NCBI RefSeq assembly: GCF_013149785.1
Contig: NZ_JABEZU010000001.1
Coordinates: forward strand, 620,001 to 684,000
DNA from: Isoptericola halotolerans
GTDB taxonomy: Bacteria > Actinomycetota > Actinomycetes > Actinomycetales > Cellulomonadaceae
DNA: 64,000 bases
Direction of reading: 5' to 3'
Shown: piece by piece, positions 48,904 to 60,303 of the stretch
Layout: each line of letters begins with the position of its first letter
Numbering within the stretch: the stretch's first letter is position 1
Made by a program: the position numbers and the translations under genes
Notes under the pieces: model-generated
Databases searched by the model: none
Told to the model about the DNA's origin: nothing
The model's input: only the letters and a program-made list of their open reading frames with translations

Positions 48904-50832
48904 TCAGCGGAGGCGGTCGGCGAGCCGGTCGAGCTGGTCACGCAGAGCCTGCGGGACACGGTCGCCGAAGGTGTCGAAGAACTCCTCCGTCAGCCGGGTC
49001 TCGGCCAGCCAAGCGTCGCCGGGCACGTCGAACAGGGCGGCCAGGTCCTCGTCGGCCAGGTCGAGCCCGCTGACGTCCAGCGCTCCCGGAGCCGGGAGGA
49101 GCCCGACGGGGGACGGGACGGCACCGGAGTCGGTGCGCACGCCCCGGGACCGGTCGATCTGCTCGGTGATCCACTTGACCACGCGGGAGTTCTCCCCGAA
49201 CCCGGGCCAGATGAACGAACCCTCGGCGTCCTTGCGGAACCAGTTGACCTGGAAGACCTTCGGCCGGTGCTCGGAGGACAGCCCGCTGCCCACCCGCAGC
49301 CAGTGCGACCAGTGGTCGGCCATGTTGTAGCCGCAGAACGGCAGCATGGCGAAGGGGTCGCGACGCAGCTCGCCGACGGCACCCTCGGCCGCCGCCGTGC
49401 GCTCGGAGCTGATGGTCGCACCCATGAAGACGCCGTGCTCCCAGCTCGTCGCCTGGGCGACCAGCGGAACGTTCGACGCCCGGCGCCCACCGAAGACGAT
49501 CGCGTCCACCGGCACGCCCGCCGGGTCCTCCCACCCGTCCGCGATGGACGGGCACTGTGCGGCGGCCACCGTGAACCGGGAGTTCGGGTGCGCGGCGGGC
49601 TTGTCGGAGGACGGCGTCCAGTCGTTGCCCTGCCAGTCGATCAGGTGCTCCGGCGGCTCCGCGGTGAGGCCCTCCCACCACACGTCGCCGTCGTCCGTCA
49701 GCGCGACGTTGGTGAAGATGACGTCGTGGGTGAGCGTCTCGATGGCGGTCGGGTTGGTCTCGACGCCCGTGCCCGGCGCGACGCCGAAGAACCCGGCCTC
49801 CGGGTTGATGGCGCGCAGCGAGCCGTCCTGGCCGGGGCGCATCCAGACGATGTCGTCGCCGATGGTCTCGACCGTCCACCCCGGCACGGTCGGCTGCAGC
49901 ATGGCGAGGTTCGTCTTGCCGCACGCGCTGGGGAACGCGGCCGCCAGGTGGTACTGGCGCTGCTCGGGCGAGGTGACCCGGATGAGCAGCATGTGCTCGG
50001 CCAGCCAGCCCTCGTCGCGGGCCATCGCCGAGGCGATGCGCAGCGCGAAGCACTTCTTGCCGAGCAGCGCGTTGCCGCCGTACCCGGAGCCGTAGGACCA
50101 GATCTCCCGGCTCTCGGGGTAGTGGACGATGTACTTCTCGTCGTTGCACGGCCACGCGACGTCCTCGTGCCGCGTGCCGTCGTCCTCGACGAGCGGTGCG
50201 CCCACCGAGTGCACCGCGGGCACCCACTGCCGGCCACCGTCGATGAGGTCGAGCACCTCGCTCGAGACCCGCGTCATGACGTGCATGGAGACGACGACGT
50301 AGGGCGAGTCGGTGACCTCGATGCCGACCTGGGAGATCGGACCCCCGACGGGACCCATGGAGAACGGCACCACGTACATCGTGCGGCCCCGCATCGAGCC
50401 CTCGAAGACGCCGTCCAGCTCGGCACGCATCTCGGCCGGGTCCCGCCAGTTGTTCGTGGGGCCGGCGTCGCCCTCGCGCTCGGAGCAGATGAACGTGCGG
50501 GACTCGACGCGGGCGACGTCCGACGGGTTCGACCGGGCGAGGTAGGAGTTCGGTCGCCTCTCCTCGTTCAGCCTGGTCAGCGTGCCGGCCTCGACCATGC
50601 CGTCGATCAGCCGCTGCTTCTCCTCGGCGGACCCGTCGCACCACACGACGTCGTCCGGCTGGGTCAGCTCGGCGATCTCGGCGACCCAGGCGTGGGGGTC
50701 GCGGGTCGGCACGCTGCCCGACGGCGTCGCCGCGGTCGTGGGGTACCCGGCGGCGTCGGTGCGGTCCAGCAGGTCGGGGACGATCTCGGCGAGCGCGAGG
50801 CGGGTCCGGCGGGGATTGGCGGTGAAGGTCAT
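48904..50832 (-). CDS. pckG: Phosphoenolpyruvate carboxykinase (GTP)
   Basis: A 642-residue enzyme that makes PEP from oxaloacetate and GTP, the first gluconeogenic step. It has the kinase-1a P-loop [13 protein letters not shown] with the reactive Cys, and the substrate-binding [18 protein letters not shown] and [12 protein letters not shown] regions. It is about 30 residues longer than most at the N terminus because of a weakly conserved leader segment. ATG 50832 has a GGAG element upstream. It is divergent from a RamB-like regulator, which fits control by acetate or other gluconeogenic carbon sources. Confidence 0.93.
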
Positions 50833-50961: not shown

Positions 50962-52443
50962 ATGACCGTAGCAACGCCGTCGGACACCCCGGACCTCATC
51001 ACCCTGGGCCGGCGCATCCGGCACGCCCGCACCTCCCGCGGGCTCACGTTGGACGGCCTGGGCCGGTCGGTGGACTGCGCACCCAGCCTGCTCTCGCTGA
51101 TCGAGAACGGGCGCCGTGAGCCACGGCTCTCGCTGCTGCGTGCGCTCGCCGAGGCGCTCGGCGTGACCCTGGCCGACCTGCTCGCCGACGAGCCGCCGTC
51201 GCGTCGCGCCGAGCTCGAGATCGCCCTGGAGCGGGCTCAGCGCGGTCCCCTCTTCGGTGCGCTCGGGCTGCCGGCGGTCCGGCCGAGCCAGAAGCTGCCC
51301 GTCCCGGTGCTCGAGCAGCTCGTCGGCCTGCACGTCGAGCTCGCCCGGCGGGAGGAGGAGGCCATCGCCACGCCCGAGGAGGCCCGGCGCGCCAACACCG
51401 TGCTGCGCACGGAGCGCCAGGAGCGTGACAACCACATGCCGCAGATCGAGGCGGTGGCCCACGACATGACGCGCCGCGCCGGCTACACCGGGGGAGCGCT
51501 GACCCACCGGACCGTGGCCCGCATCGCCGAGGACCTGGGGCTGACGATCCTGCACGTGGACGACCTGCCGCGCTCCGCGCGCTCGGTGACCGACTGGAAG
51601 AACGGCCGCATCTACCTTCCGCCGGCCTCGATCCCCGGGGGTCACGGGCTGCGATCTCTCGCGCTGCAGGCGATCGGGCACCGCGTGCTCGGCCACGAGC
51701 GTCCCCGGTCCTACGGCGAGTTCCTGCGTCAGCGCGTCGAGATCACCTACTTCGCCGCGGCCTGCCTGATCCCGGAACCCGCTGCGGTGGAGTTCCTGAC
51801 CCAGCGCAAGCGCCAGAAGGACCTCGCGGTGGAGGACTTCCGGGACGCGTTCGGCGTCACCCACGAGGCCGCCGCGATGCGCCTGACGAACCTCGCCACG
51901 GTGCACCTGGGCATCCCCCTGCACTTCCTGCGGGTGGGCGACGACGGCGCCCTGTTCCGCGGGTACGCCAACGACGGCATCCCGTTGCCCCAGGACGTCA
52001 CCGGCGCCATCGAGGGGCAGCTGGTGTGCCGGTGGTGGCCGGCGCGCGAGGCGTTCCGCCGACGGGACCGCGCCACGGAGTCCTACCAGTACACCGACAC
52101 GCCGGCGGGGACCTTCTGGGACTCGGTGCAGACGGGGACGGCGGCGGACGGCCGGCAGTTCTCCATCACGGTCGGCGTGCCGTACGTGCACGCGAAGTGG
52201 TTCCGGGGCCGCGACACGCAGGTGCGCCACACCTCGACGTGCCCGGACCCCGCCTGCTGCCAGCGGCCGCCGTCGGACCTCACCGAACGCTGGCAGGCGC
52301 ACTCCTGGCCGAGCGCCCGCATGCACCAGCAGGTGCTCGCGGCCCTGCCGCGCGGGGTGTTCCCCGGGGTGGACGACACGGACGTCTACCGTTTCCTGGA
52401 GCGGCACGCCCCGGCGGACGACGACGGGCGACCGGCGGGATGA
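50962..52443 (+). CDS. XRE-family regulator of the RamB/ScfR type
   Basis: A 493-residue regulator. Residues 12-70 form the XRE helix-turn-helix (LDGLGRSVDCAPSLLSLIE). The middle (about 160-290) is an ImmA/IrrE-like domain with a degenerate metal motif (GHRVLGHERP), and the C terminus is a Cys-containing short-chain fatty-acyl sensor region (CPDPACCQRP). In Corynebacterium, RamB controls acetate and gluconeogenic genes; the divergent pckG fits this. ATG 50962 follows CGTGAAG, which is also an operator-like site. Confidence 0.85.
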   Translation: MTVATPSDTPDLITLGRRIRHARTSRGLTLDGLGRSVDCAPSLLSLIENGRREPRLSLLRALAEALGVTLADLLADEPPSRRAELEIALERAQRGPLFGALGLPAVRPSQKLPVPVLEQLVGLHVELARREEEAIATPEEARRANTVLRTERQERDNHMPQIEAVAHDMTRRAGYTGGALTHRTVARIAEDLGLTILHVDDLPRSARSVTDWKNGRIYLPPASIPGGHGLRSLALQAIGHRVLGHERPRSYGEFLRQRVEITYFAAACLIPEPAAVEFLTQRKRQKDLAVEDFRDAFGVTHEAAAMRLTNLATVHLGIPLHFLRVGDDGALFRGYANDGIPLPQDVTGAIEGQLVCRWWPAREAFRRRDRATESYQYTDTPAGTFWDSVQTGTAADGRQFSITVGVPYVHAKWFRGRDTQVRHTSTCPDPACCQRPPSDLTERWQAHSWPSARMHQQVLAALPRGVFPGVDDTDVYRFLERHAPADDDGRPAG

Positions 52444-53051
52444 GCACGCTGCTCGTCCGGGTCGCGGCCCTGCCGGGAGGGCGGACCTCGCCGGCCTACC
52501 GGGACGTCCGCACGGCGCTGCTGGACAGCGTCCTCACCGCGGCCGGCCTCGACCTCGGTGGGGCGGTCGCCGTCCTGCGGCGTCGCTGCCTCACGTGCGG
52601 CGGGACCGATCACGGCAAGCCCGAGGTCCCGGCGGCGCTGGCGGCGGGCTGGCACATCGGCGTGGCGCACACCGCGACCCGGGTGGTCGTGGCGGCGTCC
52701 GGTGCCGGTCCGTGCGGTGTCGACGTCGAGGACGTCGACGCGGTCGCCCGGGCGCCCGTGGCGCCGGTGCTGCTCGCGCCCGAGGAGCGGGCGGACGCCG
52801 GTGCGGAGTCGGTAGAACGGCTCGCGCGGACCTGGGTCCGCAAGGAGGCGCTCCTGAAGGCCGTGGGCCACGGGCTGGCCGTGGACCCCGCGTCGGTGGT
52901 CCTCGACGGCGAGCAGCGTGCTCCGCGGGTCGTGCGCTGGGCGGGTCCCGGTCGTGCGCCGGTGCCGGCGGCCTGGGTGGAGGACGACCTGCCCGCGACC
53001 CTGGGCGTGCCGCGCGCGCTGGTCAGCGCCGTCGCGCTGCGCGCGCCCTGA
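52440..53051 (+). CDS. 4'-phosphopantetheinyl transferase superfamily protein
   Basis: A 203-residue transferase that activates carrier proteins by moving the phosphopantetheine arm of CoA to a serine. Motifs: GVDVED with Asp95 and Glu97 (metal) and TWVRKEALLKA with Trp132, Lys135, Glu136 and Lys140. It is of the Sfp-like half-repeat type. ATG 52440 overlaps the regulator gene (ATGA). The nearest carrier domain is in the Pls-like synthetase about 4 kb away, the likely client. Its end overlaps the M1 peptidase gene by 29 bases, tail to tail. Confidence 0.88.
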   Translation: MSTLLVRVAALPGGRTSPAYRDVRTALLDSVLTAAGLDLGGAVAVLRRRCLTCGGTDHGKPEVPAALAAGWHIGVAHTATRVVVAASGAGPCGVDVEDVDAVARAPVAPVLLAPEERADAGAESVERLARTWVRKEALLKAVGHGLAVDPASVVLDGEQRAPRVVRWAGPGRAPVPAAWVEDDLPATLGVPRALVSAVALRAP

Positions 53052-54387
53052 GACCGGCGCCGCGGGAGCCGGGTTCCCCGCCCGACGGCAGGTCCGGCAG
53101 CTCGGCGTCGTCGAGCCAGCGGTCCAGCAGCTCGTCGAGGCCGTCCGGGGCCGCCGCCACCTCGAGCACCAGCGACCGCAGGTCCGCCGTCGTGGCGTGG
53201 CCGTGCCGGTGCCGACCGGTCCAGGTCTGCAGGAGCTCGAAGAAGGCGTCGTCGCCGAGCGTCAGGCGCAGCGCGTGCAGCGTGAGCGCCCCGCGCTTGT
53301 ACAGCCGGTCGTCGAACATGAGGTCGGGCCCCGGGTCGGCGATGACCAGGTCCTGCTCGAGCACGGCGAGCCGGCCGTGGTGCTCGCGGGCGACCTGGTC
53401 CGCCGTCGGGCCTCCCGACCCCTCCGACCACAGCCACTCCGCGTAGCAGGCGAACCCCTCGTTGAGCCAGATGTCGCGCCACGCCCGCACCGAGACGCTG
53501 TTGCCGAACCACTGGTGGGCGAGCTCGTGGGCGACGAGGCGGTCGGAGCCCTTGCTCCCGTCCAGGTGGTTCGCGCCGAACACCGAGACCCCGTGCGCCT
53601 CGAGCGGGATCTCGAGCGGGTCGGACGTGACCACGACCGTGTACTCGGCGAACGGGTACGGCCCGAAGAGGCCCTCGAACAGGGAGAAGAGCTCGTCGTG
53701 CCGATCCAGGTCGTGCGCGACGTCGGCGGCCTGGCCCGCAGGCCGGGCCACGCGGGCACGGTCGCCCAGGGCCGCGACGTCGTACGGGCCCACCTGCACC
53801 GTGGCGAGGTAGGAGCACATCGGCTCGGTGCGCTCGAACGTCCAGGTGCGGGTCCCGGCCCGGCGGGTGACCGTGCGGAGGGGCGCGTTGGCGACCACGG
53901 TGTACGGGGCGTCGGTCGTGACCGACAGGTCGTACGTCGCCTTGTACCCGGGGTGGTCGTTGCAGGGGAACCAGGTGGGCGCACCCGTGGGCTGCCCGGC
54001 GACGAGCGCTCCCTCGGTCAGCTCCTCCCAGCCGACGTCGCCCCAGGGACCCGTGGCCGGTGCCGGGTTCCCGGCGTAGGCGACGGACACCGCTGCGGTG
54101 CCTCCGGCCTCCAGGGCGTCGGCGAGGCGGACCCGGACGGAGCCCTTGCGCTGGGAGTGGCGGACGCGGACCCCGTCGACCTCGACGCGGGAGACGCGCA
54201 GGCCCACGAGGTCGAGCTGCAGCTCGTCGAGCGCGCCGAGTGCGCGCACGGCCAGGCGGGCGCGGCCCTCGAGCCGGTTCGGTTCCACGCGGTAGCGCAG
54301 ATCCAGGTCGTAGTGGTCGACGACGTAGTCGCGCGACCCGTGGTGCGGCACGTAGGGGTCGGGGTCGCTCGCGCGGCTGTGCAGCAT
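53023..54387 (-). CDS. M1-family zinc aminopeptidase
   Basis: A 454-residue metallopeptidase, shorter than the 850-residue aminopeptidase N because it lacks the C-terminal superhelix. HELAH at residues 287-291 and Glu310 in NEGFACYAE are the zinc ligands and catalytic Glu. No signal peptide, so cytoplasmic. ATG 54387 lies 11 bases after the stop of the Pls-like gene, so they are cotranscribed. In Streptomyces albulus an M1-type zinc aminopeptidase degrades epsilon-poly-lysine, making this a candidate trimming or self-protection enzyme for the synthetase product (inference). Confidence 0.88.
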   Translation of the reverse strand: MLHSRASDPDPYVPHHGSRDYVVDHYDLDLRYRVEPNRLEGRARLAVRALGALDELQLDLVGLRVSRVEVDGVRVRHSQRKGSVRVRLADALEAGGTAAVSVAYAGNPAPATGPWGDVGWEELTEGALVAGQPTGAPTWFPCNDHPGYKATYDLSVTTDAPYTVVANAPLRTVTRRAGTRTWTFERTEPMCSYLATVQVGPYDVAALGDRARVARPAGQAADVAHDLDRHDELFSLFEGLFGPYPFAEYTVVVTSDPLEIPLEAHGVSVFGANHLDGSKGSDRLVAHELAHQWFGNSVSVRAWRDIWLNEGFACYAEWLWSEGSGGPTADQVAREHHGRLAVLEQDLVIADPGPDLMFDDRLYKRGALTLHALRLTLGDDAFFELLQTWTGRHRHGHATTADLRSLVLEVAAAPDGLDELLDRWLDDAELPDLPSGGEPGSRGAGLRARAARRR

Positions 54388-54398
54388 GGTCGGTGAGC

Positions 54399-57300
54399 CT
54401 ATCCGTCCTGGGTCGCCGGCCACGGCGAGACCGGGTTGCCGTGCCAGCGCGAGCCCGCGGGAAGCACCTCGCCCCGCATCACCAGGGATGCGGGGCCCGC
54501 CACGGCCGTGCGTCCCAGGCGGGTGGCGGGCAGCACCACCGAGTGCGGCCCGACGGTCGCGCCGGGCAGGAGCTCGACCGTGTCCAGGCTCATCACCCGG
54601 TCGTGGAACAGGTGGGTCTGCAGCACGGTGCCGCGGCCGACGACGGAGCCGTCGCCGAGGCGTACCAGGTCGCCCTCGGGCAGCCAGTACGTCTCGCACC
54701 ACACGCCGCGGCCCACCTGCACGCCCATGGTGCGCAGCCAGCCGGTGAGCAGCGAGGTACCCGTGACGTGGTTCGCGAACCACGGGGCGGCCACCACCTC
54801 GGTGAAGGTGTCGGCGAGCTCGTTGCGCCACACGAAGCTGCTCCACAGCGGATGGTCGCCGGCCCGGAACCGGCCGACCAGCAGCCACTTGGCGGCCGAC
54901 GTCAGGAGGGCGGCGAGGAGGCCCCCGGCGAGCAGCGCCGGCCCGGCCAGAAGGCCCGCCGCCCCCCAGCCCGCGGCGCGGGCCGCCTCGAGCACGACGG
55001 TCACGACCGCGGCGGCGAGCCCGGCCGAGACGACCACGGCCGACAGCCGGAGCACCTCGACGGCACCGCGAGCCCACAGCAGCCGTCGGTTCGGGTTGAA
55101 GGTCAGCCCTTCGTCGGACTCGTCGGCCGTCGCGCGGCGCAGCAGGACCGGGGGGCTGCCGATCCAGGAAGAGCCCTTGCGCGCCTTGTGCGGTGCAGCG
55201 GACAGGACGGCGACGAGCCCGTTCTTGGGCACGCTGCGGCCGGGCGCGGTGATGCCGGAGTTGCCGAGGAACGCTCTGCGCCCGACCTTGGCACGGGCCA
55301 CGCGCATCCATCCGCCACCCAGCTCGTAGGGCGCCACCATGGTGTCGTCGGCGAGGAAGGCGCCGTCGGAGGCCTCCATCATCGACGGGATCCCCACGAC
55401 GGTCGACGCCTCGACGTGCTTGCCCATCCGGGCGCCGAGCAGGCGCAACCACCCCGGTGTGAACACGCTCGAGTAGAGCGGGAAGAGCGCGGTGCGGGCC
55501 GAGTCCATGACGCGCTCGGTGGACCACGCCTGCCAGCCGACGCGGCTGCGCACGGGATGGTATCCCGCGGTCATGCCCAGGCTGAGGACGCGGACGAGCG
55601 CGAGCGTGAGCAGCGCGTAGGTCGCGAACGCCGCGAGAGCTGCGGCCGGGAGCCGGGCGGCGGCGGCCACCATCACGTCCGCCGGCGTGGGCGTACCGGC
55701 CGGCGGGGGGCCCGCGAGCAGCACGAGCGCCCCGACGGTGACGGCGGCCACGGGCAGCAGGGACAGCAGGACACCGCCCACGCCGTAGAGGACCACCCAG
55801 GCCGGGCCCCGGTCCGGGCGCCCGTCCGGCCACGGGTGCTTGACCTGGCTGCGGCGGCGGGTCGCGGGCGATCCCTCCCAGTACTCGTTGCGGCCCGTGG
55901 AGCCGACGACGGCGGACCCGGCCGCCACGTCGGTGCCACGGCGGACACGTGCCCCCGGCAGCAGGACGCTGCGCGCGCCGATGGTGGCGCCGCGGCCGAT
56001 GGTGATCGGGCCGAGGTGGAGCACGTCGCCCTCGATCCAGTGCCCGGAGAGGTCGACCTCCGGCTCGACGGCGGCGCCGTCACCGATCCGCAGCATGCCG
56101 GTGACCGGCGGCAGGGTGTGCAGGTCGACACCGCGGCCGATGCGCGCGCCCAGGGCCCGGGCGTAGAGACCCACGAGCGGGGCGGCCGAGACCGTGATGC
56201 CGCCGAGGGCGTCGACGAGCCGTTCGGCCAGCCAGAGTCGTCGGTGCACCGAGCCCCCTCGGGGGTGGTCCCCGGCACGCACGCCACGCAGCAGGACCCG
56301 GGCCCCGAGGGCGGCGAGGGCCAACCGGCCCAGCGGCGTCACGAGCAGCAACCAGGCGAGGATCACGCCGGCCGCGGGCACAGCCGGGACACCGTCCACC
56401 ATCCGCGCGGTACCGGACCCGGGATCGAGGACCCCGACGTCGACGGCGCCCCGGGTGGCGACCACGGCCAGCGCGGTCCAGGTGGCCCAGCGCAGGCCCG
56501 AGACCACTCGGAGCGCCACGAGCATCACCTGCTGGAAAAGGTGCGTGCCGGGCGCCGTCAAGGGGACCGGCGCGGTGGGGTCCGCGGCCGGTTCGAGGTC
56601 GGCGAGCCCGTACGTCGCCTCGAGATGCTCGGCGAGCTCGGCGACGGTGGGGTGGGCGTAGAGGTCGGCGACCGTGGCGGCGGGGTAGCGCTCGCGGACG
56701 GACGAGACGACCTGGGCGGCCGTGAGGCTTCCACCACCGAGGTCGAAGAAGTCGTCGTCGGGGTTCGCGGGAGCGACGCCGAGCACCGCCGACCAGCGAT
56801 CGGCGAGCCAGACGGCGGTCGGCCCGCCGAGGTCGGAGCCGCTGTCGGGTGGCGTTCCCCCGCCTGGTTCGACGAGCGGCCAGGGCAGTGCGTCGCGGTC
56901 GACCTTGCCGCTGGTGCGGGTCGGGATCTCGTCGACGACGCCGAGCAGCGGAACGAGCGCCGCGGGGAGCACGTCGCGCAGGTGGGCGGTCAGGGCGTGG
57001 GCGTCGAAGGTGGCCGGGTCGGTCGGCACGACGTAGCCCACGATCACCTGGTTGCCGGCACCGGACCGGCGGACGGCGGCGGCCGCGGCCGAGACCTGCG
57101 GGTCGGCGAGCAGGGCGGCGTCGATCTCTCCCAGCTCGATGCGCCGGCCGCCGACCTTGACCTGGTCGTCGGCGCGTCCCACGAACAGCAGCCCGGCCGG
57201 GTCGTTGACCACCAGGTCGCCCGACCGGTACGCGCGCTCCCAGCCGAGCGAGGGCAGCGGGGCGTACTTCTCGGCGTCCTTGACGGGGTCGAGGTAGCGG

Positions 57301-58385
57301 CCGAGCCCGACGCCGCCGATCACGAGCTCACCGGTCGCGCCCGCGGGGACGGGCTCCCCGGCGTCGTCCACCACGACGAGGTCCCAGCCCTCGAGCGGGA
57401 GGCCGATCCGGATCTCGCCCGTCCCGTCGAGCGGCGCCGCGCAGGCCACGACGGTCGCCTCGGTGGGGCCGTAGGTGTTCCACACCTCGCGGTCCGGCCC
57501 GACGAGCCGTGCCGCCAGCTCGGGCGGCACGGCCTCGCCGCCGAAGATGAGCAGCCGGACCCGTTCCAGGTCGGAGGCGGGCAGCAGCCCGGCGAGCGTG
57601 GGGACGGTCGAGATCACGGTGATGCCCCGGTCGGCGACCCACGGACCCAGGTCGAGCCCGGTGCGCACCAGCGCGCGGTCGGCCGGGACGAGGCAGGCGC
57701 CGTGGCGCCATGCCAGCCACATCTCCTCGCAGCTCGCGTCGAACGCCACGGACAGGCCCGCCAGCACGCGGTCGCCCGGGCCCAGCGGTGCCTGCTGCAG
57801 GAAGAGGCGGGCCTCGGCGTCGACGAAGGCGGCCGCGCTGCGGTGGGTGACGGCCACGCCCTTCGGGACGCCGGTCGACCCGGAGGTGAAGATGATCCAG
57901 GCGTCGTCCTCGGGTCGGGGCGGTGCAGGGGCGTCGGTGCTCGCGAGGTCGTCGGGGTCGACGACGGCGGCAGCGCCGTCCGGGAGGGCATGGCCCGGCC
58001 CGGGGACGACCTCGCCGTCGTCGCCCACCACGGCGACGACCCCGGCCTCGCCGAAGACGAGCTCGGCTCGTTCGGCCGGGTCGTCGCGGTCGACGGGCAC
58101 GTAGGCGGCACCGGCGTGCAGGACCGCGAGGATCGACAGGTAGAGGTCCGCACGGCCGGACGTGGCACGCACGCCGACGCGATCTCCGCGCCGGACGCCG
58201 TGACGGGCCAGCGCCGTCGCCCGCGACCGCACCTCCGCGTGGAGGTCGGTGTAGCTCCAGGTCCTGGCGTCGTCCTCGATGGCCGGGGCGTCCGGGTAGG
58301 TGGCGGCGGTGCTCGCCAGGACGTCGACGAGGGTACGGACGGAGGGTGTGCGGTCGCTCGCGAGCAGGGACGAGGTCGGGGACAC
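54399..58385 (-). CDS. Pls/PosA-type membrane non-ribosomal peptide synthetase
   Basis: About 1328 residues from GTG 58385, which has GAGAGGA five bases upstream; GTG 58424 would add 13 residues. Domains: adenylation (about 15-480: TSGSTGVPKGVAVTHRS, NTYGPTEATVV, TSGKVDRDAL); thiolation with Ser553 in DLGGGSLTAAQ; then six transmembrane helices in three pairs separating three cytoplasmic-type left-handed beta-helix-like modules. This is exactly the layout and nearly the length (1319) of epsilon-poly-lysine synthetase. The ten specificity residues, aligned by eye to GrsA, read D-A-E-S-I-G-T-V-V-K, close to known lysine codes and containing Glu at position 239, expected for a basic side chain. 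It needs the neighbouring phosphopantetheinyl transferase. Confidence 0.88.
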   Translation of the reverse strand: MSPTSSLLASDRTPSVRTLVDVLASTAATYPDAPAIEDDARTWSYTDLHAEVRSRATALARHGVRRGDRVGVRATSGRADLYLSILAVLHAGAAYVPVDRDDPAERAELVFGEAGVVAVVGDDGEVVPGPGHALPDGAAAVVDPDDLASTDAPAPPRPEDDAWIIFTSGSTGVPKGVAVTHRSAAAFVDAEARLFLQQAPLGPGDRVLAGLSVAFDASCEEMWLAWRHGACLVPADRALVRTGLDLGPWVADRGITVISTVPTLAGLLPASDLERVRLLIFGGEAVPPELAARLVGPDREVWNTYGPTEATVVACAAPLDGTGEIRIGLPLEGWDLVVVDDAGEPVPAGATGELVIGGVGLGRYLDPVKDAEKYAPLPSLGWERAYRSGDLVVNDPAGLLFVGRADDQVKVGGRRIELGEIDAALLADPQVSAAAAAVRRSGAGNQVIVGYVVPTDPATFDAHALTAHLRDVLPAALVPLLGVVDEIPTRTSGKVDRDALPWPLVEPGGGTPPDSGSDLGGPTAVWLADRWSAVLGVAPANPDDDFFDLGGGSLTAAQVVSSVRERYPAATVADLYAHPTVAELAEHLEATYGLADLEPAADPTAPVPLTAPGTHLFQQVMLVALRVVSGLRWATWTALAVVATRGAVDVGVLDPGSGTARMVDGVPAVPAAGVILAWLLLVTPLGRLALAALGARVLLRGVRAGDHPRGGSVHRRLWLAERLVDALGGITVSAAPLVGLYARALGARIGRGVDLHTLPPVTGMLRIGDGAAVEPEVDLSGHWIEGDVLHLGPITIGRGATIGARSVLLPGARVRRGTDVAAGSAVVGSTGRNEYWEGSPATRRRSQVKHPWPDGRPDRGPAWVVLYGVGGVLLSLLPVAAVTVGALVLLAGPPPAGTPTPADVMVAAAARLPAAALAAFATYALLTLALVRVLSLGMTAGYHPVRSRVGWQAWSTERVMDSARTALFPLYSSVFTPGWLRLLGARMGKHVEASTVVGIPSMMEASDGAFLADDTMVAPYELGGGWMRVARAKVGRRAFLGNSGITAPGRSVPKNGLVAVLSAAPHKARKGSSWIGSPPVLLRRATADESDEGLTFNPNRRLLWARGAVEVLRLSAVVVSAGLAAAVVTVVLEAARAAGWGAAGLLAGPALLAGGLLAALLTSAAKWLLVGRFRAGDHPLWSSFVWRNELADTFTEVVAAPWFANHVTGTSLLTGWLRTMGVQVGRGVWCETYWLPEGDLVRLGDGSVVGRGTVLQTHLFHDRVMSLDTVELLPGATVGPHSVVLPATRLGRTAVAGPASLVMRGEVLPAGSRWHGNPVSPWPATQDG

Positions 58386-58509: not shown

Positions 58510-60303
58510 TCAGTCGTCCGTGCGGTGCTCCCACGCGTCGAGGCGCACCGTCCAGGGCCAGGGCAGGGCCGCCTGGAGCGCGTCGCGCAGCCGCTCGCCC
58601 TCGGCCCGGTGCTCGCCTGCCACGGCGGCGTCGTCCCAGCCGTCGAACGGGCCGAAGTGCTCCTGGAACGTCTCCGCCCAGGCGCGGAGCCGGGAGCGCA
58701 GCGTGTCGTCGATGCCGTCCTCGATGCGCGCCGGGAGGCTCGACCACAGCGGCCACTCGGCGGAGTAGTCGTTCATCAGTCGGACCTCGTACGCCGCGTG
58801 CGGCGACGGAGGCTCCGCGGGGCTCTCGGCAGAGAGGTCGGTGCCGACGCCCGGGCTGTCGCCGACGGGGTCCGCGCTGTCCGCGGACGACTCGTCGGCG
58901 GACCCCACGCCGTCGGGGGCGAACACCTCGCCCGACTGCGGTGCGTAGGCGAACCACCCGAAGGACGCGCTTCCGGCACCTGGCTCGGCGAGCGGCCCGC
59001 CGCGCGCGTCGAGCCGCTCCAGCAGGCGGGCGAAGACGTCGCCGGCGCGCAGGCCGTCGTGCTCGAACTCGTTGGTCACCCAGGCGCGGGCGTTGCCCAC
59101 CCGGGCCGTGGTGTCCAGGGAGAGGCCGGCGTCGACGAACATGTCGTCGTGGTAGACCGCCGCCTCGAGCGGCACCTCGTTCGCGGCGAGCACGTCGAGG
59201 TCGTACAGGTCGCGCCAGCCGTCGCGGGCGGCCAGCGCCTCCGCGGCCGCGCGGAACGGCCGCAGGGCGGCGACCTGCTCGAACATCCAGGGGTAGATCA
59301 TCTCGCCGGTGAGGAGCAGCGGCCGGGCGCCGGTGGCGAAGGAGGGGTCGGCGTCGCGCACCCGCTGCGCCGCCCACGCCGTCGGCCCGGTGCTGGACTG
59401 GGCGTAGATGGACTCGTGCAGCACGGCGTACAGCGGGTTGGTGGCGAAGCCGGTGGCGGCCTCGACCTCGGCGAGGAAGGTGTCGGTGAGGGTGTCGGCG
59501 GCGCCTGCTCCAGGCAGGTCGTCGAACGCCTCGTCGATGATCCAGTGCACCCGTTCGAACCCAGGCCCCATGCCGAACGCCATGCCGAGGCTCTGGAAGC
59601 GCTCGACGGTGAGCAGGTCGCCACCGGGCAGGTGCACGTCGCCGACGGCGATCCGGTCGGCGATCCGGGCGATGCGGTCGGCGTCCTGCGGGTACCGCGC
59701 CCGGTACAGCGCGTTCTTCGCGACGACGCGCGGCTGCGTGCGCCCGTAGACGTCGTCGGCGCTCGCGGTCAGGCCGGCCAGCCCGCCGGTGACGTACGAC
59801 GCCGCCACGCCCTCGGGGGCGAGCGACAGGTAGGTGAGCGTGAGGAACCCGCCGTACGACTGGCCGAGCGTGGACCAGCGCCGGTCGTCGTACAGGGTCC
59901 TGCGCACGTGCTCGGCGTCGAGCACGATCGAGTCGGCGCGGAAGTGCGACAGGTGCTCGGCCTGGGCCTCGGCGGTGCCGAGCGCGGCGAGCGTGCCTGC
60001 CCGGACCGCTGTCGACCGCCCCGTGCCGCGCTGGTCGAGAAGCACCACGCGGAACCGTTCGAGCGCCTTGCCGAGCCAACCCTCGGGTCCGGTGGGGCGC
60101 GGCCCCTTCCCGCCGGGGCCGCCCTGGAGGAAGACCAGCAGGGGTAGGTCGTCGTGACGGCGCTGCGGGGCGACGACCTCGCGGACGAACAGCGAGAGCG
60201 TACGGTCGTCGCCGGGCGTCGCCCAGTCGAGGGGGACCGTGAGGGTGCGGTCGGTGACGTGGGCGCCGGGGATCGTGTACCCGGCGGTCGAGGTGATGGT
60301 CAC
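58510..60303 (-). CDS. Prolyl-aminopeptidase-like alpha/beta hydrolase with fused C-terminal domain
   Basis: A 597-residue protein. Residues 1 to about 430 are the peptidase S33 core: FLQGGPGGKG (oxyanion hole), LLDQRGTGRS and the nucleophile elbow LGQSYGGF. HDDMFVDA near 380 may hold the acid; the His is near the end of the core. After an acidic low-complexity linker (SADESSADSADPVGDSPGVG) comes a 110-residue domain (YEVRLMNDYSAEWPLWSS, ending LDAWEHRTDD) that I recognise only as a separate small actinobacterial protein type. The gene lies upstream of the Pls gene on the same strand. Confidence 0.8.
   Translation of the reverse strand: MTITSTAGYTIPGAHVTDRTLTVPLDWATPGDDRTLSLFVREVVAPQRRHDDLPLLVFLQGGPGGKGPRPTGPEGWLGKALERFRVVLLDQRGTGRSTAVRAGTLAALGTAEAQAEHLSHFRADSIVLDAEHVRRTLYDDRRWSTLGQSYGGFLTLTYLSLAPEGVAASYVTGGLAGLTASADDVYGRTQPRVVAKNALYRARYPQDADRIARIADRIAVGDVHLPGGDLLTVERFQSLGMAFGMGPGFERVHWIIDEAFDDLPGAGAADTLTDTFLAEVEAATGFATNPLYAVLHESIYAQSSTGPTAWAAQRVRDADPSFATGARPLLLTGEMIYPWMFEQVAALRPFRAAAEALAARDGWRDLYDLDVLAANEVPLEAAVYHDDMFVDAGLSLDTTARVGNARAWVTNEFEHDGLRAGDVFARLLERLDARGGPLAEPGAGSASFGWFAYAPQSGEVFAPDGVGSADESSADSADPVGDSPGVGTDLSAESPAEPPSPHAAYEVRLMNDYSAEWPLWSSLPARIEDGIDDTLRSRLRAWAETFQEHFGPFDGWDDAAVAGEHRAEGERLRDALQAALPWPWTVRLDAWEHRTDD

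Follow-up and report, generated by a model that had tools for sequence, protein, structure and literature searches.

What does the synthetase locus in this stretch of the Isoptericola halotolerans genome make, and is its product new? The stretch, hereafter the window, comprises 64,000 nucleotides (NCBI RefSeq assembly GCF_013149785.1, contig NZ_JABEZU010000001.1, positions 620,001 to 684,000 of the forward strand). The locus consists of genes for a Pls-type non-ribosomal peptide synthetase (NRPS), an M1 zinc peptidase, and a phosphopantetheinyl transferase (PPTase) (Table 1). Judged from its sequence, it very probably directs the biosynthesis of ε-poly-L-lysine (ε-PL). The original prediction had also raised the prospect of an undescribed polymer, which the substrate code and the phylogeny of the synthetase do not support: the code is that of the crystallised ε-poly-lysine synthase (7WEW), and the protein grouped with the ε-PL-making enzyme of Corynebacterium variabile. 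Nor is the system undescribed, as a synthetase gene paired with a peptidase gene is already known from publications on pls-pldII. The locus is thus a fresh copy of a familiar system.

The synthetase matched TIGR02353, the 'Pls/PosA family non-ribosomal peptide synthetase', at 656.2 bits (cut-off 423.1), and pls was the sole place in the 3.97-Mb genome to exceed that cut-off. A Pfam scan of the product revealed AMP-binding (6e-67) and AMP-binding_C domains, one PP-binding carrier (1e-14), and hexapeptide repeats, and found no condensation or thioesterase domain. These results bear out the predicted Pls-type layout of one adenylation (A) domain, one carrier, and no condensation domain. The carrier serine is residue 554, in the motif GGGS. 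The layout of six membrane helices around three soluble C domains is predicted from the TIGR02353 family match; in a simple hydropathy scan, five segments reached at least 1.6, with none at the expected site of the first of the six. The stop codon lies at 54399-54401 (-). For the start, we prefer GTG 58385, which has GAGAGG six bases 5' of it; GTG 58424, in frame and lacking a visible ribosome-binding site, is possible. Among the best 80 loci, the closest named relatives of the synthetase were those of Cellulomonas sp. PhB143 (81%), Xylanimonas oleitrophica (77%), and Cellulosimicrobium cellulans (67%). More broadly, TIGR02353 was matched above its cut-off by 104 of the 394 genomes sampled across the class and by 69 of the 221 from the family.

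The substrate code of the A domain was re-derived from alignment and residue spacing, as opposed to a structure-based alignment to GrsA, and agreed with the basic, lysine-type code predicted earlier: D-A-E-S-I-G-T-V-V-K, at residues 217, 218, 221, 260, 281, 283, 305, 313, 314, and 495. A comparison with characterised Pls enzymes, which the original prediction had proposed, gave identity at ten of ten code positions with both 7WEW and C. variabile Pls. Over the A domain, the window protein and 7WEW were 65% identical (309/477 aligned residues), and over a 121-residue stretch of the pocket, 75% (91/121). The code was nearly invariant in an alignment of 176 rows, which took in the window and 7WEW, kept duplicate loci, and omitted the six of 181 loci that had no Pls-like A domain: 168 rows had exactly DAESIGTVVK, one had DAESIGTVIK, six had DFE-type codes, and one was a fragment. 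The underlying sample was skewed to close kin, having been drawn from the 80 best window matches, 60 loci of the window's own family, and 40 of its class. From the code together with the phylogeny, we infer that the A domain activates L-lysine. By far the likeliest product is ε-poly-lysine.

The descent of the protein was resolved using loci related to the two characterised enzymes. The 7WEW chain was strongly matched in 166 of 392 genomes of one genus, taken to be Streptomyces. Among the matches listed, identities fell at 74-93% in at least 23 places and at 65-71% in a larger set. Twenty Streptomyces-type loci were retrieved, of which 14 belong to the high-identity set and are referred to as Streptomyces albulus-type. 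In one of these, L277, the upstream region shared 85% identity with the S. albulus pls promoter as published, and four others (L281, L283, L285, and L290) had a 4-bp overlap of pls with the M1 gene. The first Streptomyces-type pls-M1 loci considered (L114, L117, L118, L120, and L123) were rejected as S. albulus-type based on promoter mismatch and the lack of this overlap. The C. variabile pls gene was located using both published primers, the forward primer having one mismatch, in the start codon. Its product was 54.8% identical to the window protein and 50.5% identical to that of L277; the published value for C. variabile versus Streptomyces Pls is 51% (PMC8117764; this and the other papers cited are represented here by excerpts). 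The window protein and the S. albulus-type protein were about 52% identical. A tree of 59 full-length rows was computed using a quick method with Shimodaira-Hasegawa-like approximate likelihood ratio (SH-aLRT) support only. In it, the S. albulus-type rows clustered together (11 rows, SH-aLRT 99). The window and C. variabile proteins fell in one 43-row group with SH-aLRT of 100, or 78 once the divergent L121 joins it. The tree omits L286, L292, and L294, in which no M1 gene was seen, and the long or incomplete L122, L124, and L127. By descent, the window protein is thus nearer to the C. variabile enzyme, and the S. albulus-type Pls is the other characterised branch.

Some retrieved sequences depart from this pattern. 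In G072 and G176, the match to pls falls into two parts, and L203 is without most of its A domain; these copies look like decaying or misassembled genes. The TIGR02353 proteins of loci L131 (2224-5463 +) and L132 (3326-6898 -) have hexapeptide repeats and carrier domains, with no A domain listed. In L113, L115, L119, and L130, the TIGR02353 match is next to an NRPS gene that has an A domain of its own. These four were rejected as A-domain-less homologues of lysine-type Pls, the open reading frame picked having been the adjoining NRPS gene. In both sets, it would be unusual for a polymerising part to be separate from its A domain.

The M1 peptidase gene begins at ATG 54387 on the same strand as pls, after the predicted 11-nt gap. 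Its identity was borne out by matches to PF01433 and PF17900, both above cut-off, and by the zinc motif HELAH-18-E. Of 161 distinct lysine-code loci, 155 had an M1 gene directly 3' of pls and one had it further off, while in five none was seen in the stretch covered; one was encoded in 79 of the 80 best-matching named loci. This adjacency rules out a random neighbour of pls. In S. albulus-type loci, an M1 gene was nearby in 11 of 14, downstream on the pls strand. The two sets differ in their N-termini. All 11 S. albulus-type peptidases had a twin-arginine-like signal, in which S or T precedes RR and a hydrophobic stretch follows; nine of the 11 cleared a hydropathy cut of 1.6, and the other two scored 1.54-1.55. 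At the same cut, no signal was found in any of 170 window-type loci (163 distinct M1 sequences). Specifically, no hydrophobic segment was found at the N-terminus of the window peptidase, and the C. variabile M1 has no room for a signal peptide. The window enzyme was about 51% identical to the M1 peptidases of the second group of Streptomyces-type loci and about 43% to those of the S. albulus type. Based on the lack of an export signal, as judged from predicted start codons, the window M1 looks cytoplasmic, which is its most likely location. The original prediction had the peptidase trimming the polymer: a peptidase does stand in tandem with the synthetase, and trimming as proposed is doubtful, given that the window M1, unlike the S. 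albulus-type PldII, has no export signal. Among the matches listed, no open-licence paper naming pldII contains the phrase 'signal peptide'; a signal on PldII cannot on that account be called unpublished.

Outside the S. albulus-type set, two of 172 loci passed the signal cut, L125 and L126, both with DFE-type synthetases. In each, the M1 gene is downstream of the synthetase and its product has a Sec-like signal. The M1 partner is therefore not limited to lysine-type enzymes.

The PPTase gene converges on the pls-M1 pair, as predicted: its product scored 39.6 bits against PF01648 (cut-off 25) and 20.7 bits against NCBIfam TIGR00556 (below the cut-off of 45.35), and its 3' end overlaps that of the M1 gene by 29 nt. 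At its other end, its start codon lies in a 4-nt overlap with the end of the regulator gene upstream. The prediction that the PPTase belongs with the locus fits its distribution in the genus, in which it is present or absent alongside pls and the M1 gene. Specifically, pls occurred in two of 18 genomes (G000, the window genome, and G148), and a close PPTase in the same two, with weak matches only in G145 and G146. In both pls-bearing genomes, PPTase, M1, and pls all lie between the same two flanking genes. In 15 of 15 Pls-less genomes examined, no match to any of the three was found in the ~9 kb beside the regulator. Thus, the three genes come and go as a unit.

It is nonetheless conceivable, if unlikely, that the PPTase is an unrelated neighbour that happens to converge on the pair. 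Consistent with this, a convergent PPTase was present within 3.5 kb in only 52 of the 161 distinct lysine-code loci (absent with room in 107, two being cut short), and the gene, because of its overlap with the regulator gene, is presumably co-expressed with the latter rather than with pls. However, of the 18 genomes of the genus, 17 contain the regulator itself (G149, in which it was not found, is 74% complete), whereas the close PPTase is confined to the two with pls. The association also extends across the family: PPTase matches scoring at least 45 bits occurred in 40 of 72 genomes with pls, counting whole, partial, or broken copies, versus 11 of 149 without (Fisher p about 1e-14, uncorrected for kinship), and matches at 80 bits in 10 of 72 versus 1 of 149. 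PPTases within biosynthetic clusters are known for the granaticin and rishirilide pathways, as excerpts of the literature indicate. Among the matches listed, the titles and opening lines of the open-licence literature yielded no description of a PPTase beside pls; the arrangement cannot thereby be called unpublished. The excerpts of PMC4668381 deal with the enzyme for the diaminopropionate polymer and have no bearing on the PPTase. Elsewhere in the window genome, at C4:347010-371523, long frames encode several adenylation domains of what appears to be an NRPS cluster, and a PPTase match is situated about 14 kb away.

Several observations weigh against assigning the locus to ε-PL production. 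Its synthetase is not a strict orthologue of S. albulus Pls but belongs to a sister group, as judged from the tree. Three S. albulus-type loci, L286, L292, and L294, had no M1 gene seen in the stretch covered. Two Pls copies occurred in seven of the 166 Streptomyces-type genomes with a match. For five of these, both copies were retrieved, and the pairs were split between the two groups, three by the tree and two by identity alone, which hints at separate roles. The PPTase is not essential to the system, as one was near only 52 of the 161 lysine-code loci and none accompanied the 21 loci added to these (20 of Streptomyces type and that of C. variabile); moreover, the window genome has two other PPTase matches. 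Finally, according to the excerpt of PMC8117764, ε-PL was undetectable in cultures both of C. variabile and of C. glutamicum with the C. variabile gene; loci of this kind may therefore be silent.

One alternative for the product is that the gene is a Pls paralogue that loads lysine and yields no free antimicrobial polymer, for instance because it forms short oligomers retained in or on the cell or because the locus is silent. The distinct sister group, the two-copy genomes, the M1 without a signal peptide, and the absence of ε-PL from C. variabile's own culture are all consistent with this alternative, which we nevertheless consider improbable. In S. coelicolor, the C. variabile enzyme, from the same group as the window protein, produced ε-PL chains 26-35 residues long (PMC8117764), and the carrier serine was retained in 175 of 175 aligned rows.

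The choice of monomer is informed by published codes. According to the excerpt of PMC10522769, code position 2 is Ala in Pls, Met in PosA, and Phe in enzymes for diaminopropionate (Dap) and diaminobutyrate (Dab), and Glu at position 3 is common to all of them. A tree of A domains was built from 61 selected rows. In it, a branch with 100/100 support separated the 55 rows with lysine codes, including the window and 7WEW, from the six DFE-code rows; the group used for contrast comprised only actinobacterial DFE-type rows, whose product is unproven, and PosA was not among the rows of either tree. Polymerisation of another basic monomer (ornithine, Dab, Dap, β-lysine, or arginine) is very improbable: although some members of the Pls family use such monomers and one homologue has modest arginine activity (PMC10522769), and although a code by itself predicts substrate imperfectly, the Ala at position 2 is tied to lysine in that source, all ten code positions are identical to those of 7WEW and the C. 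variabile enzyme, and the DFE-code rows lie across the branch from the window.

In the biosynthesis of ε-PL by this locus, the PPTase would turn the carrier domain of Pls into its holo form, and the A domain would adenylate L-lysine and load it onto the carrier. The membrane-embedded C1-C3 modules would then link lysines by isopeptide bonds between ε-amino and α-carboxyl groups, and the product would be exported from the cell, both as reported for S. albulus Pls. By analogy with PldII, the M1 peptidase would degrade ε-PL from the N-terminus, most likely in the cytoplasm, for self-protection or lysine recycling. The three genes are inherited as a single cassette in the genus.

The locus resembles S. 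albulus pls-pldII in its domain layout, ten-residue code, and M1 gene downstream on the same strand. In S. albulus, pldII is adjacent to pls in the same operon, and the two genes overlap by 4 bp (PMC4361855), and PldII is the chief ε-PL-degrading enzyme, translationally coupled to pls and located outside the membrane (PMC9223678). In contrast, the window has an 11-nt gap between the two genes, a peptidase without the twin-arginine-like signal, and a PPTase alongside, in addition to the divergence in sequence and tree position. The pls-peptidase operon of C. variabile (PMC8117764) shares the tree group, the code, the downstream M1 gene, and the lack of room for a signal peptide in its product; it differs in sequence and in having no PPTase match among open reading frames of at least 100 amino acids in 8.8 kb. 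Several coryneform genera also carry Pls homologues (PMC8117764). The δ-poly-L-ornithine synthetase PosA of Acinetobacter baumannii, compared here by its published description (PMC10522769), shares the family name, the domain layout, and the Asp and Glu of code positions 1 and 3; however, its code is DMEHNGTVSK and its substrate ornithine. Published accounts give PosA six helices and three β-helices.

The additions to the known system are modest: a cytoplasmic-looking M1 in a widespread group, and a PPTase co-inherited with the locus. Likely ε-PL makers are thereby extended to the Cellulomonadaceae and relatives. ε-PL is sold commercially to preserve food. Of greater use are the two lysine-type Pls groups, which differ in the predicted site of the peptidase, and a PPTase that is apparently part of the locus: a matched PPTase might help where heterologous production of ε-PL fails. 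It is possible, though doubtful, that the widespread actinobacterial ε-PL lineage has a function unlike that in S. albulus, with a cytoplasmic M1 that polices the polymer within the cell, a dedicated PPTase accompanying the synthetase in many family relatives, and different jobs for the two lineages where they coexist in some Streptomyces.

Table 1. Genes of the candidate ε-PL locus and its flanks, in window coordinates.
Feature	Coordinates	Strand	Remarks
Helix-turn-helix (HTH) regulator, weakly IrrE-like, distantly RamB-like	50962..52443	+	One flank of cassette site
Phosphopantetheinyl transferase (PPTase)	52440..53051	+	Convergent with M1; PF01648
M1 zinc peptidase, PldII-like, no signal peptide	53023..54387	-	11 nt past pls stop
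Pls-type synthetase, predicted to make ε-poly-L-lysine	54399..58385	-	A - carrier - C1/C2/C3 with membrane helices; code DAESIGTVVK
Alpha/beta hydrolase, weak proline iminopeptidase match	58510..60303	-	Other flank of cassette site

All five genes were also found close together in Xylanimonas oleitrophica (L034). Among the 15 Pls-less genomes of the genus, the hydrolase gene lay within the ~9 kb on the regulator side in ten, with 80 nt between match edges in G145; across these ten (among L253-L267), the interval between regulator and hydrolase ranged from 80 nt to about 5 kb. The site may thus be prone to frequent gene exchange. The match of the regulator to the acetate regulator RamB was weak (39 bits, cut-off 700). 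Divergent from the regulator gene is one for phosphoenolpyruvate carboxykinase, at 48904-50832 (-), identified by eye from its translation.

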